Of a stretch of 64,000 bases of DNA, positions 4,341 to 14,450 are shown piece after piece; the stretch's first letter is position 1, and every line of letters begins with the position of its first letter. The position numbers were made by a program, and so were the translations under genes. Location: positions 434,001 through 498,000 of the forward strand of contig NZ_CP024314.1 of NCBI RefSeq assembly GCF_002944315.1, read 5' to 3'. This stretch comes from Rhizobium sp. NXC24 (lineage in GTDB: Bacteria > Pseudomonadota > Alphaproteobacteria > Rhizobiales > Rhizobiaceae). Under the pieces are notes generated by a model. It searched no databases. It was not told where the DNA came from and saw only the letters and a list, made by a program, of their open reading frames with translations.

Positions 4341-5663
4341 TCAGCTCAGCGAGCCCACTTGATCCAAAAACCTCCTGAATTGCTCTTCAGGAACGAACGA
4401 TCCGCCCGTCGTCCAAAGGACGTGCGTCGCTCGCGGCATCTTGTCTTCGATGCTATGCTGAGTCTGGAAGCGCCGTCCCTCTGAATGGCGGACGATGAAG
4501 TCGGGACCCAGCAGCGCCGCAGCCGCAGACGGTTCGAGCTTCTGGCGCTGGGTCGTCCACGCCATACGCAATAGCTTGAAGAGGTCGTTGTCCGCCACCG
4601 TGAAGACCCCGGCAAGCATTTCTCGCATCACGGTCGCCACAAACGCCGACATCCGGGCGACTGCCATGCCGTCGGCTTCCGTCTTGTTCGTCAAACCCAC
4701 GTCATAAACCGAGACCAGGTCCCGCGAGCCGGACATCATGTGGACGAGCGCACATGGAGACTGAACGGGTTCGACGAAAAACGCGTGCACGTTGTCGCCG
4801 AAGATCGCCTTTGCGCCGAAAGCAACCCCGCCAGGCGCTCCACCGATACCGCAGGGCAGATAAAGAAAAAGGGGATTATCCTCGTTGACGGTTATGCCAC
4901 GTTCATCCAGTTGCCCCGCCAACTCCGATGCTGCCGTGCTGTAGCCTAGGAAGAGGTGCCTGGATTGTTCGTCGTCAACGAAATAAATAGTCGGCTCGGC
5001 TTCGGCGATGGTGCGGGCGTTCTCCACGGCGGTCGTGTAATCCGCTTCGTGCTGAATGACCTCCACGCCAAGTTTCCGCAGACGCTCGACCTTCCAGGTC
5101 TTGGCATCTGAAGACATGTGGACGGTGGCCTTAAAACCCAGCGCGCGTGCAGCAATACCCACGCTCAAACCGAGATTGCCCGTGCTGCCGACAGCGACGG
5201 TGTATTGCGAGAAGAACGTCCGGACTTCATCAGTCGCTAGCTTGCGGATGTCTTCGCCGTCGGTGAGGAAGCCATTGTGTCGCGCAAGACCCTCCGCAAA
5301 CAGGAACACTTCATACACGCCGCCGCGTGCCTTAATCGAGCCTGCGACCGGGAGGTGGCTATCGGCCTTGATGAAGACGTTTCCAAATTCCCGCGTGCGG
5401 TATCCGAGGGCCTCGCGGAGCTCCTTGAGCTCGACCAATTCGGAACGGATCTCACCGTTCGTGGATTCGAGTTCGGGAAAGCAGGCGGCGAGGAGGGGTG
5501 CCAGGCGTTGCCAATTCATGTGGGCACGCTGAACATCCGCAGGAGAGATCGGCAGGTCCGAAGTCTCGATTGCGCCTTGACGGTAGAGCGGGTTGAGCCA
5601 AAGCGTCGGGCGTGCTGCGAGGATGTCGTCGCGAGCGGGGTCGGCGGGCAGTACTGCGTTCAT
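4341..5663 (-). CDS. dsdA: D-serine ammonia-lyase
   Basis: A PLP-dependent enzyme of 440 residues that converts D-serine to pyruvate and ammonia in the cytoplasm. The PLP lysine lies in HLPVAGSIKARGG (Lys111) and the phosphate-binding glycine loop is GSTGNLGLSVG. Length and end-to-end similarity fit DsdA. ATG 5663 is preferred over a TTG 12 bases upstream because GGAAA sits 7 bases before it. The gene is last in a minus-strand run behind four amino-acid ABC-transporter genes, 46 bp after the ATPase, so it should be co-transcribed with the importer. Together with the SHMT homologue, FolD and PurU on the other strand it suggests that D-serine is an intermediate of a longer pathway rather than simply the nutrient taken up. 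Confidence 0.93.
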   Translation of the reverse strand: MNAVLPADPARDDILAARPTLWLNPLYRQGAIETSDLPISPADVQRAHMNWQRLAPLLAACFPELESTNGEIRSELVELKELREALGYRTREFGNVFIKADSHLPVAGSIKARGGVYEVFLFAEGLARHNGFLTDGEDIRKLATDEVRTFFSQYTVAVGSTGNLGLSVGIAARALGFKATVHMSSDAKTWKVERLRKLGVEVIQHEADYTTAVENARTIAEAEPTIYFVDDEQSRHLFLGYSTAASELAGQLDERGITVNEDNPLFLYLPCGIGGAPGGVAFGAKAIFGDNVHAFFVEPVQSPCALVHMMSGSRDLVSVYDVGLTNKTEADGMAVARMSAFVATVMREMLAGVFTVADNDLFKLLRMAWTTQRQKLEPSAAAALLGPDFIVRHSEGRRFQTQHSIEDKMPRATHVLWTTGGSFVPEEQFRRFLDQVGSLS

Positions 5664-5709
5664 GTCAGTTTCCAAGCTTCCGTGGACCGGGACAAGAGGG
5701 ACTCTCTCG

Positions 5710-6468
5710 TCAGTGCTTCAAGACCCGCGCGAGGAAGGAGCGCGCACGATCATTCTTGGGGTTGTCGAAAAATTCGTCGGGCTTGCCGATCTCGAGGATT
5801 GATCCCTGATCGATATAGACGACGCGATCGGCGACTTCGCGTGCGAAGCCCATCTCATGCGTCACGACCATCATCGTCATACCGGAAGCGGCGAGTTCGC
5901 GCATCACGTCGAGGACTTCGCCGACCATTTCCGGGTCGAGAGCGCTTGTCGGTTCGTCGAACAGCATGAGATGCGGCTCCATTGCCAGCGAGCGGGCGAT
6001 CGCCACGCGCTGCTGTTGGCCCCCCGAAAGCTGCCCCGGATACTTGTGGGCATGGGCTCGAAGGCCGACGCGGTCCAGAAGCTTCATTGCCGTCGCCTCG
6101 GCTTCATCCCGAGACTTCTTGCGGACGCGCATGGGAGCAATCGTGATGTTGTCGAGCACTGTCTTGTGCGGAAAAAGACCGAACTGCTGGAAGACCATGC
6201 CGACGCCCTTTCGGATCGCGGCAAGCTCGCGTTCTCCGCCCAGCCTGCGATCTGCTTCGACAGGCATGTCGAAACCATCAACGACGAGGCTGCCGTTCTG
6301 GTACATCTCGAGACCGTTGACGCACCGGATCAGGGTCGATTTTCCCGAACCGCTAGCGCCCAAGATGACCATGACTTCACCGCGGGTCACAGAGAGATCG
6401 ATGTCCTTGAGCACATGGTGAGCGCCGTAGAACTTGTTCATGCTTTTCATTTCGACGATGGCGTTCAT
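5710..6468 (-). CDS. Amino-acid ABC transporter ATP-binding protein
   Basis: A 252-residue ATPase of the polar amino-acid (PAAT) class, close in pattern to AapP/GlnQ. Walker A is GASGSGKST, the Q-loop lies in GMVFQQFGLFPH, the ABC signature is LSGGQQQR, Walker B is LMLFDEPTSALDPEM and the switch histidine is in VVTHEMGFA. The start at 6468 is set by GGAG eight bases upstream; an alternative ATG lies seven codons earlier. It lies 25 bp after the second permease gene. It energises the importer encoded by the next three genes. Confidence 0.93.
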   Translation of the reverse strand: MNAIVEMKSMNKFYGAHHVLKDIDLSVTRGEVMVILGASGSGKSTLIRCVNGLEMYQNGSLVVDGFDMPVEADRRLGGERELAAIRKGVGMVFQQFGLFPHKTVLDNITIAPMRVRKKSRDEAEATAMKLLDRVGLRAHAHKYPGQLSGGQQQRVAIARSLAMEPHLMLFDEPTSALDPEMVGEVLDVMRELAASGMTMMVVTHEMGFAREVADRVVYIDQGSILEIGKPDEFFDNPKNDRARSFLARVLKH

Positions 6469-13529: not shown

Positions 13530-13550
13530 GTCCGAACAAGGATTTCTCAA

Positions 13551-14450
13551 ATGACGACCACGCACCCCCGTTTCGCACTTCGCGTTGCCTGCCCGTCGAT
13601 CCGCGGTGTGACCGCTGCCATCGCGACTTATCTCTCCGCGAACGGCTGCAACATTTCCGACAGCGCGCAGTTCGACGACGCTGACACAGGACGCTATTTC
13701 ATGCGCATCAGCTTTCAACCGGAGGAGGGACACACGCTTGAGCAGCTCTGTGAAGGGTTCACGCCGATCGCGGAGAAGTTCGAAGCGAATGTCGTCGAGT
13801 TCTTCGATGAGACCGAGAAAAAGAAGGTGATCCTGATGGTGAGCCGCTTCGGCCATTGCCTAAACGACCTCCTCTACCGCTGGCGGATCGGCGCGCTGCC
13901 GATCGACATTGTCGGCGTCATCTCAAACCACATGGACTATCAGCGAGTGGTGGTGAACCACGACATCCCATTCCACTGCATCAAGGTCACGAAGGAGAAC
14001 AAGCCGGAAGCCGAGGCGAAGCAGATGCAGATCGTCGAGGACTCGGGCGCCGAGTTGATCGTGCTCGCCCGCTACATGCAAGTTCTCTCCGATGAGATGT
14101 GCCGGAAGATGTCGGGCCGAATCATCAACATCCACCACTCGTTCCTGCCGAGTTTCAAGGGGGCCAACCCCTACAGGCAGGCGTTCGAGCGCGGCGTCAA
14201 GCTCATCGGTGCGACATCGCACTACGTCACTGCCGATCTCGACGAGGGTCCGATCATTGAGCAAGACATCGTGCGCGTCACCCATGCTCAGAGCGGCGAG
14301 GACTATGTGAGCCTTGGCCGCGATGTCGAAAGTCAGGTGCTCGCCCGCGCGATCCACGCTCACATTCATGGGCGTGTGTTCATCAACGGTAACAAGACGG
14401 TGGTGTTCCCGGCGTCTCCTGGGTCCTACGCGTCTGAGCGCATGGGCTGA
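13551..14450 (+). CDS. purU: Formyltetrahydrofolate deformylase
   Basis: PurU of 299 residues, hydrolysing 10-formyl-THF to formate and free THF. An N-terminal ACT domain (about residues 8-85) is followed by the formyltransferase-like catalytic domain. The catalytic Asn, His and Asp are visible as INIHHSFLP (Asn193, His195) and TADLDEG (Asp231). With FolD it converts the methylene-THF made by the SHMT homologue to formate and regenerates THF, allowing continuous turnover of the first step. The same glyA-folD-purU logic is known from other pathways that load THF with one-carbon units, such as sarcosine and glycine-betaine breakdown. Confidence 0.95.
   Translation: MTTTHPRFALRVACPSIRGVTAAIATYLSANGCNISDSAQFDDADTGRYFMRISFQPEEGHTLEQLCEGFTPIAEKFEANVVEFFDETEKKKVILMVSRFGHCLNDLLYRWRIGALPIDIVGVISNHMDYQRVVVNHDIPFHCIKVTKENKPEAEAKQMQIVEDSGAELIVLARYMQVLSDEMCRKMSGRIINIHHSFLPSFKGANPYRQAFERGVKLIGATSHYVTADLDEGPIIEQDIVRVTHAQSGEDYVSLGRDVESQVLARAIHAHIHGRVFINGNKTVVFPASPGSYASERMG

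Follow-up and report, generated by a model that had tools for sequence, protein, structure and literature searches.

Gene organization of the cluster

The window analysed here is a stretch of 64,000 nucleotides from Rhizobium sp. NXC24, located on a 2,379,650-base contig of a 7.3-Mb genome in four contigs. Between positions 4341 and 14450, on the same contig, it carries nine open genes in two divergent arms that probably together encode the uptake and breakdown of 2-hydroxymethylserine (HMS). A preliminary description, made from the letters of the window, had reported an amino acid ATP-binding cassette (ABC) importer and a D-serine ammonia-lyase (DsdA) on one strand, a central LysR gene, and a divergent arm with a serine hydroxymethyltransferase (SHMT) homologue, folD and purU. 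The list of open reading frames (ORFs) and profile searches recovered all of these genes, open and at the same coordinates.

The minus-strand arm runs from the gene of a periplasmic binding protein (8887..9918, PF00497), a candidate HMS binder, through two permease genes (7615..8865 and 6494..7618) and an ATPase gene (5710..6540) to dsdA (4341..5675). The plus-strand arm consists of the gene of a predicted alpha-methylserine/2-hydroxymethylserine hydroxymethyltransferase (mSHMT, 11241..12518; "glyA" in annotated relatives), followed by folD (12618..13529) and purU (13551..14450). Within each arm the genes are spaced by 21-99 bases or overlap. The lysR gene (10220..11116) is likewise encoded on the minus strand; 301 bases separate it from the binding-protein gene, which lies downstream of it, and 124 bases from the divergent mSHMT arm. 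The starts given are the earliest possible ones, and some true starts are probably slightly further in; that of the first permease (416-aa ORF) is probably internal, and the ATPase gene is annotated at 759 bases in a relative (L003), shorter than the window ORF.

DsdA scored 604.3 bits against NCBIfam NF002823 (cut-off 246) and 524.1 bits against TIGR02035 (cut-off 368.25), which places it in the curated family. It is the sole DsdA of the genome, the next match being 26% identical over half its length. FolD (methylene-tetrahydrofolate dehydrogenase/cyclohydrolase; NF010785, 449.5 bits, cut-off 396) and PurU (formyl-tetrahydrofolate deformylase; NF004684, 415.5 bits, cut-off 223; TIGR00655, 328.3 bits, cut-off 285.95) were assigned in the same way. 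The genome as a whole holds two SHMT genes (the window copy and GlyA), one DsdA gene, three FolD genes and, with the window copy included, four PurU-like genes of at least 73% identity.

Both permeases (the second of 374 aa) exceeded the cut-offs for PF00528 and TIGR01726. The ATPase (PF00005) is of the polar amino acid type, its best NCBIfam matches being amino acid importer ATPases under their equivalog cut-offs. The four importer genes are of the kinds expected for the AapJQMP type of general amino acid ABC importer, a type of broad L-amino acid specificity that the window importer may resemble. Its binding protein is at most 39% identical to five full-length paralogues in the genome. An altered ligand pocket relative to these paralogues was considered and is not claimed: only Asn51, in place of Asp, passed the cut-off, and the fragment L001 hampers the count. 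The regulator has PF03466 and PF00126 domains and is GltC-like, GltC being its best NCBIfam match, under the cut-off.

The SHMT homologue differs from ordinary GlyA

The SHMT homologue had been described as atypical, and the comparison bears this out. It belongs to the SHMT family (PF00464, 482.8 bits), the lysine after position 234 aligns with the lysine of GlyA, and NCBIfam places it in the general subfamily model NF000586. It is 55% identical to GlyA, the only other SHMT found in the genome, and carries Thr60 and His70. According to one study, Tyr55 and Tyr65 of SHMT are donor-specificity residues that correspond to Thr60 and His70 of alpha-methylserine hydroxymethyltransferases, and changing Tyr55 to Thr enabled an SHMT to use D-alanine and D-serine (PMC6411801). 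The pair of the window protein has the same numbering as in these literature enzymes.

The window protein and 91 further sequences (L001-L091) were aligned. His70 occurred with Thr60 (34 sequences) or Ser60 (one sequence) in 35 of the 92, including the window, and Tyr/Tyr in 55, the genome's own GlyA among them; L001, itself a further copy of the window gene, and L050 (Thr/Tyr) fell outside both groups. The groups, which are defined by residues 60 and 70 themselves, match overall identity to the window protein (at least 62% for Thr(Ser)/His, at most 58% for Tyr/Tyr), and 15 alignment positions discriminate them under the cut-offs used. The two types also split at 100/100 in a 46-row tree (36 Thr(Ser)/His rows and 10 others) that included L107 of five class-level loci and left out L105, L106, L108 and L109.

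Among the matches listed, the closest relatives come from Rhizobium, Sinorhizobium and Ensifer, plus one labelled Agrobacterium, and several of the 120 relatives listed in UniRef are named 2-methylserine hydroxymethyltransferase. Enzymes of this class (EC 2.1.2.7) are said to have been described from Ensifer, Aminobacter and Paracoccus by Nozaki et al.; compared by residue pair, they share Thr60 and His70 with the window protein at the same numbering. The mSHMTs of the TRIS degradation clusters discussed below were found most similar to characterised alpha-methylserine hydroxymethyltransferases (PMC10848231), and this statement, the residue pair and the UniRef names tie the window protein to the characterised enzymes. 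By sequence, the window SHMT belongs to the alpha-methylserine type rather than to ordinary GlyA.

That it might be an ordinary L-serine/glycine enzyme supplying one-carbon units, in a cluster for D-serine handling and one-carbon balance, would agree with its place in NF000586 and with the general one-carbon roles of SHMT, FolD and PurU. Against this stand the Thr/His pair, compared with Tyr/Tyr in 55 of 55 GlyA-type rows, the separate GlyA in the genome, and the fact that breakdown of D-serine by DsdA requires no one-carbon enzyme. We regard this explanation as improbable, and less so only than a biosynthetic role, which is weighed below.

mSHMT is linked to dsdA, folD, purU and the importer

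As a check, the preliminary description had proposed to look for this SHMT subtype together with dsdA, folD, purU and the importer; the check, made in loci, plasmids and genomes, was positive. The locus survey covered up to 10-14 kb on each side of the SHMT gene; many loci were shorter, and some were ended by a contig edge. Of the 35 Thr(Ser)/His loci, 19 had a DsdA gene, compared with none of the 56 others. These 19 loci contained FolD in 17 cases, PurU in 18, a relative of the window LysR in 18 and a binding protein of at least 68% identity in 16. The loci lacking the binding protein are L007, L008 and L010, and a DsdX-type gene is present in L008 and L010.

The idea that all Thr/His SHMTs come with a linked DsdA was rejected because the surveyed stretch lacked one in 16 of the 35 loci; no common pathway emerged among the ORFs beside these SHMTs (20 ORFs searched with Pfam, 10 with NCBIfam). 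A tree count giving a single change for the dsdA label was likewise set aside, since 17 unlabelled rows had been excluded from it yet lie among the dsdA rows. Five loci (L011, L024, L027, L030 and L111), from roseobacters, Kiloniella and metagenomic Alphaproteobacteria, pair a Thr/His SHMT gene with a divergent LysR-type neighbour, called by Pfam in L024, L027 and L030 and by annotation in L011 and L111, and no DsdA was found in them.

Among the plasmid matches listed, 27 records, many of them near-copies of one another, carried an SHMT at least 61.9% identical to that of the window. DsdA was present in 25 of them, 1.3-7.1 kb away from start to start; two Ruegeria records had no annotated DsdA within 10 kb. 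Across 394 Rhizobiaceae genomes, the SHMT (E <=1e-160) was found in six and DsdA (E <=1e-80) in ten. The four genomes with an SHMT of at least 92% identity were the same four with a DsdA of at least 81%, at similar distance and orientation. Pairing was not strict, however: two genomes with a 67-74% identical SHMT (one with an internal stop) had no such DsdA, and six with a DsdA of 44-68% identity had no window-type SHMT. In the class, the window-type SHMT occurred in 5 of 385 genomes, the host included, and the module was present in two of eight listed genomes of the host genus. From these counts, the module is rare and accessory.

The position of dsdA varies among lineages. In the window and in eight relatives (L003, L012-L017 and L025) it is the last gene of the importer arm. 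In six loci (L004, L005, L019, L020, L110 and L113) it comes after purU or after an extra dehydrogenase gene behind purU, in four (L007-L010) after mSHMT, and in two Paracoccus loci (L006 and L022) it is next to folD-purU. Thus dsdA occupies four distinct positions, yet remains part of the gene set. Such recurrence in many lineages with varying order is beyond chance, and the exchange of dsdA between the arms, hard to explain otherwise, argues that both arms serve one pathway.

Conserved blocks in the two promoter regions

An alignment of 14 loci revealed a conserved block between lysR and the mSHMT gene (11138..11188, plus strand), with the core AAATATTATTAACTTTTTCTGG at 11167-11188. At up to three mismatches it had a single site in the window and none in 100 shuffles. 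A 19-base part of it, searched genome-wide at up to three mismatches, matched one other site, with three mismatches; a reversed-pattern control gave one match per strand. By eye, similar blocks precede mSHMT in Mesorhizobium (L009) and Paracoccus (L006 and L022), a weaker one is present in the Pseudomonas strain Teo1, and none was visible before mSHMT in Klebsiella (L010). A second block, with the core GAGAATTAAGTAGATTTGAA (10113..10132, minus strand; alignment of 13 loci), lies upstream of the binding-protein gene and was the single window site at up to two mismatches.

Both blocks contain a common element in opposite orientation, the score of which was matched in 2 of 200 column permutations at width 14; widths 10 and 18 gave 12 and 1 of 200, and width 24 gave another pairing (4 of 200). 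The window LysR likely controls both arms. Scans for sigma-70 promoters and terminators gave no excess over shuffled sequence.

Relation to the TRIS degradation clusters

A homologous gene set is known from the degradation of TRIS, a synthetic chemical used as a laboratory buffer. Holert et al. (2024) describe the oxidation of TRIS to HMS by TupA, TaoA and TaoB, and showed that cluster II (mSHMT, DsdA, FolD, PurU and DsdX), the second half of the pathway, causes HMS removal and ammonium release when placed in E. coli, with no removal in the absence of dsdX; its enzymes were not assayed singly (PMC10848231). Both TRIS clusters are strongly upregulated on TRIS in Teo1, the cluster II gene context also occurs in Pseudomonas without cluster I, and the association of mSHMT with D-amino acid genes was, according to the authors, unreported before (PMC10848231).

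The window proteins are 64-76% identical to mSHMT, DsdA, FolD, PurU and the divergent GltC-like LysR of Pseudomonas hunanensis Teo1 (CP131128.1), the regulator adjoining cluster II being 66% identical. The two systems differ in uptake, with DsdX in Teo1 and the ABC importer in the window, where no DsdX relative was found in bases 1-30000 (E 1e-20). They differ also in the position of dsdA, which directly follows mSHMT in Teo1, and in the TRIS oxidation genes, which adjoin cluster II in Teo1. No TaoA or TaoB relative was found in window bases 1-30000; in the genome-wide search, made for TaoA alone, the best match was 45% identical to Teo1 TaoA.

Closer relatives are found in Shinella zoogloeoides Teo12, whose plasmids p2 (CP131132.1) and p1 (CP131131.1) encode mSHMTs 83-85% identical to that of the window together with the same LysR, FolD, PurU and DsdA, dsdA being located in the mSHMT arm instead. 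No D-serine transporter homologue was reported in the TRIS clusters of Teo12; the main text of that paper makes no mention of an ABC transporter and names p1_Teo12 once, in the genome description (PMC10848231). Searching the literature (titles and abstract starts of open-licence papers) for the compound, for the enzyme and for the gene set returned no description of such a rhizobial cluster. The preliminary description left it open whether the cluster had been described before; the homologous TRIS cluster II had been, and the same pathway was proposed for it. The pathway is not new in kind; new are the rhizobial version with an ABC importer and without a close TaoA, the second copy in Teo12, and the outcome of the tree tests given below.

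A putative pathway for 2-hydroxymethylserine catabolism

Taken together, these features indicate that the cluster is probably a module for the catabolism of HMS and possibly of alpha-methylserine as well. HMS would enter through the ABC importer, and mSHMT would transfer one hydroxymethyl group to tetrahydrofolate (THF), leaving D-serine. DsdA would convert D-serine to pyruvate and ammonia, while FolD and PurU would turn methylene-THF into formate and regenerate THF. LysR probably senses the substrate or an intermediate and governs both arms. From the gene set, the residue signature, the linkage and the promoter blocks, all read from the DNA, we infer the substrates of enzyme and importer, the single steps and the regulation in the strain. 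A single pathway from import to pyruvate, ammonia and formate, as first suggested in the preliminary description, is thus supported by the co-occurrence, by the residue pair and by HMS degradation through the homologous cluster (PMC10848231). It also agrees with PbzB, which makes HMS and depends on the matching Thr and His (PMC10098953).

Several points weigh against this interpretation. For the window enzyme and importer it is a prediction from sequence. The enzyme class is reportedly also active on alpha-methylserine, giving D-alanine. Because 16 of the 35 Thr(Ser)/His loci show no DsdA within the surveyed stretch (some ending at contig edges), the enzyme type alone does not imply D-serine. 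The element common to both promoter regions is only moderately significant, and the existence of a natural HMS source for rhizobia is presumed. A reported occurrence of HMS in a Vicia species was not found in the literature search and was not used.

The strongest alternative, which we still judge unlikely, is that alpha-methylserine is the natural substrate and is converted to D-alanine, DsdA separately disposing of D-serine taken up by the same transporter. Characterised enzymes of the mSHMT type act on alpha-methylserine or D-alanine, many mSHMT relatives occur without DsdA, and in Shinella Teo12 a gene for D-amino acid dehydrogenase accompanies DsdA in the TRIS-linked cluster. The window cluster, however, holds no D-alanine enzyme, DsdA is the recurring partner of mSHMT, and the homologous cluster degrades HMS. 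The two substrates are inseparable by sequence alone, and the presence of DsdA favours HMS. That the enzyme is biosynthetic, supplying HMS or alpha-methylserine to a natural product in the manner of PbzB, is very improbable. PbzB is an SHMT-family enzyme with Thr/His in place of Tyr/Tyr; it makes HMS for benzobactin inside a peptide synthetase gene cluster, and its T68Y H78Y double mutant gives undetectable product (PMC10098953). In the window, the mSHMT gene is grouped with genes for an importer, a D-serine lyase and the removal of methylene-THF, and no peptide synthetase domain was found in ten further ORFs (nine of the 22 listed ORFs of at least 250 aa beyond 14.5 kb, and one at the left end).

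Origin of the TRIS-linked modules

Besides its TRIS plasmid p2, Teo12 carries a complete window-type set on the 1.89-Mb megaplasmid p1 (L110:4429-14967), detected by translated search in a part of the record without annotation. It comprises the binding protein, two permeases, the ATPase, LysR, mSHMT, FolD, PurU and DsdA, with the importer intact. On p2 the importer is broken: a Tn3 element lies between the binding protein and LysR, only 95 of the 374 residues of the second permease are matched, and the 29-kb stretch yielded no ATPase above 40% identity. The p2 cluster also has an additional gene for a D-amino acid dehydrogenase. Plasmid p5 of M15, likewise a TRIS plasmid, shows the same importer state. 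Decay of the importer on p2 would fit a supply of HMS from within the cell.

The two Teo12 mSHMTs are 89% identical to each other. The TRIS-linked one shares 95% identity with the mSHMT of L020, a locus where no TRIS genes were detected, and 64.5% with its Teo1 counterpart. Teo1 mSHMT, in turn, is 84% identical to that of a Klebsiella plasmid, with TaoA and TaoB not present in the Klebsiella locus. Approximately unbiased (AU) tests rejected the Pseudomonas and Shinella TRIS versions as one group for mSHMT (p = 5e-87), DsdA (8e-27), PurU (8e-5) and LysR (1e-3), a grouping picked after the first SHMT tree was known and tested with FolD left out. FolD points the other way, Teo1 being closer to Teo12 p2 (73.5%) than to Klebsiella (67.4%).

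It follows from the AU rejection and the mSHMT identities that either the HMS module was recruited at least twice, or its combination with the TRIS oxidation genes is much older than TRIS production. We favour two or more recruitments. The older combination is still to be considered because sequence differences between the two hosts reach about a third of the residues in TaoA and a quarter in TaoB (66% and 72% identity between Teo12 and Teo1; L004:26174-29272 and L008:5349-8544). This divergence is large for a pathway said to have arisen within decades.

On balance, we lean towards the view that the preassembled HMS module of plant-associated Alphaproteobacteria is the older natural form and that TRIS degraders acquired this module, or a distant relative of it, on at least two independent occasions (in Pseudomonas and in Shinella/Rhizobium) and added TRIS oxidation genes. 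The importer would then have decayed on the Shinella TRIS plasmid, while in rhizobia the module would still serve to use HMS that occurs naturally in soil or plants.

A protelomerase-family gene was seen about 10 kb from mSHMT on both p2_Teo12 (L004:2516-3991) and M15 p5 (L112:2659-3930). The recorded topology is linear for p5 and circular for p2_Teo12; given the shared gene and the linear p5, p2_Teo12 may be a linear plasmid as well.

Other features of the window

At the left end of the window, an ORF at 170-1706 has a DNA ligase D phosphoesterase domain (residues 51-158) and continues for about 300 codons in another frame over an SDR-like ORF (786-1706); either of the two overlapping reading frames may be altered. 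Downstream of the cluster lie genes for a Ku-domain protein (30478-31296) and an IS66-type transposase (37562-39202). A 631-aa protein encoded at 41916-43811 matches the Pfam family MATCAP (microtubule-associated tyrosine carboxypeptidase) with 301 bits; the family takes its name from a eukaryotic function. Neither the Rfam scan nor the tRNA scan gave a match in the window.

Biological significance

The analysis gives a likely function to rhizobial genes annotated as a spare glyA and its neighbours, and names a likely HMS importer for Shinella Teo12. This alters the view of the TRIS pathway, which breaks down a synthetic chemical and is said to have been assembled recently: its second half was apparently a ready-made unit, equipped with a regulator and an importer, that has been recruited two or more times. 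From the module, 2-hydroxymethylserine is predicted to be naturally available in soil or plants; the cited literature presents this compound as an antibiotic building block and a TRIS intermediate.

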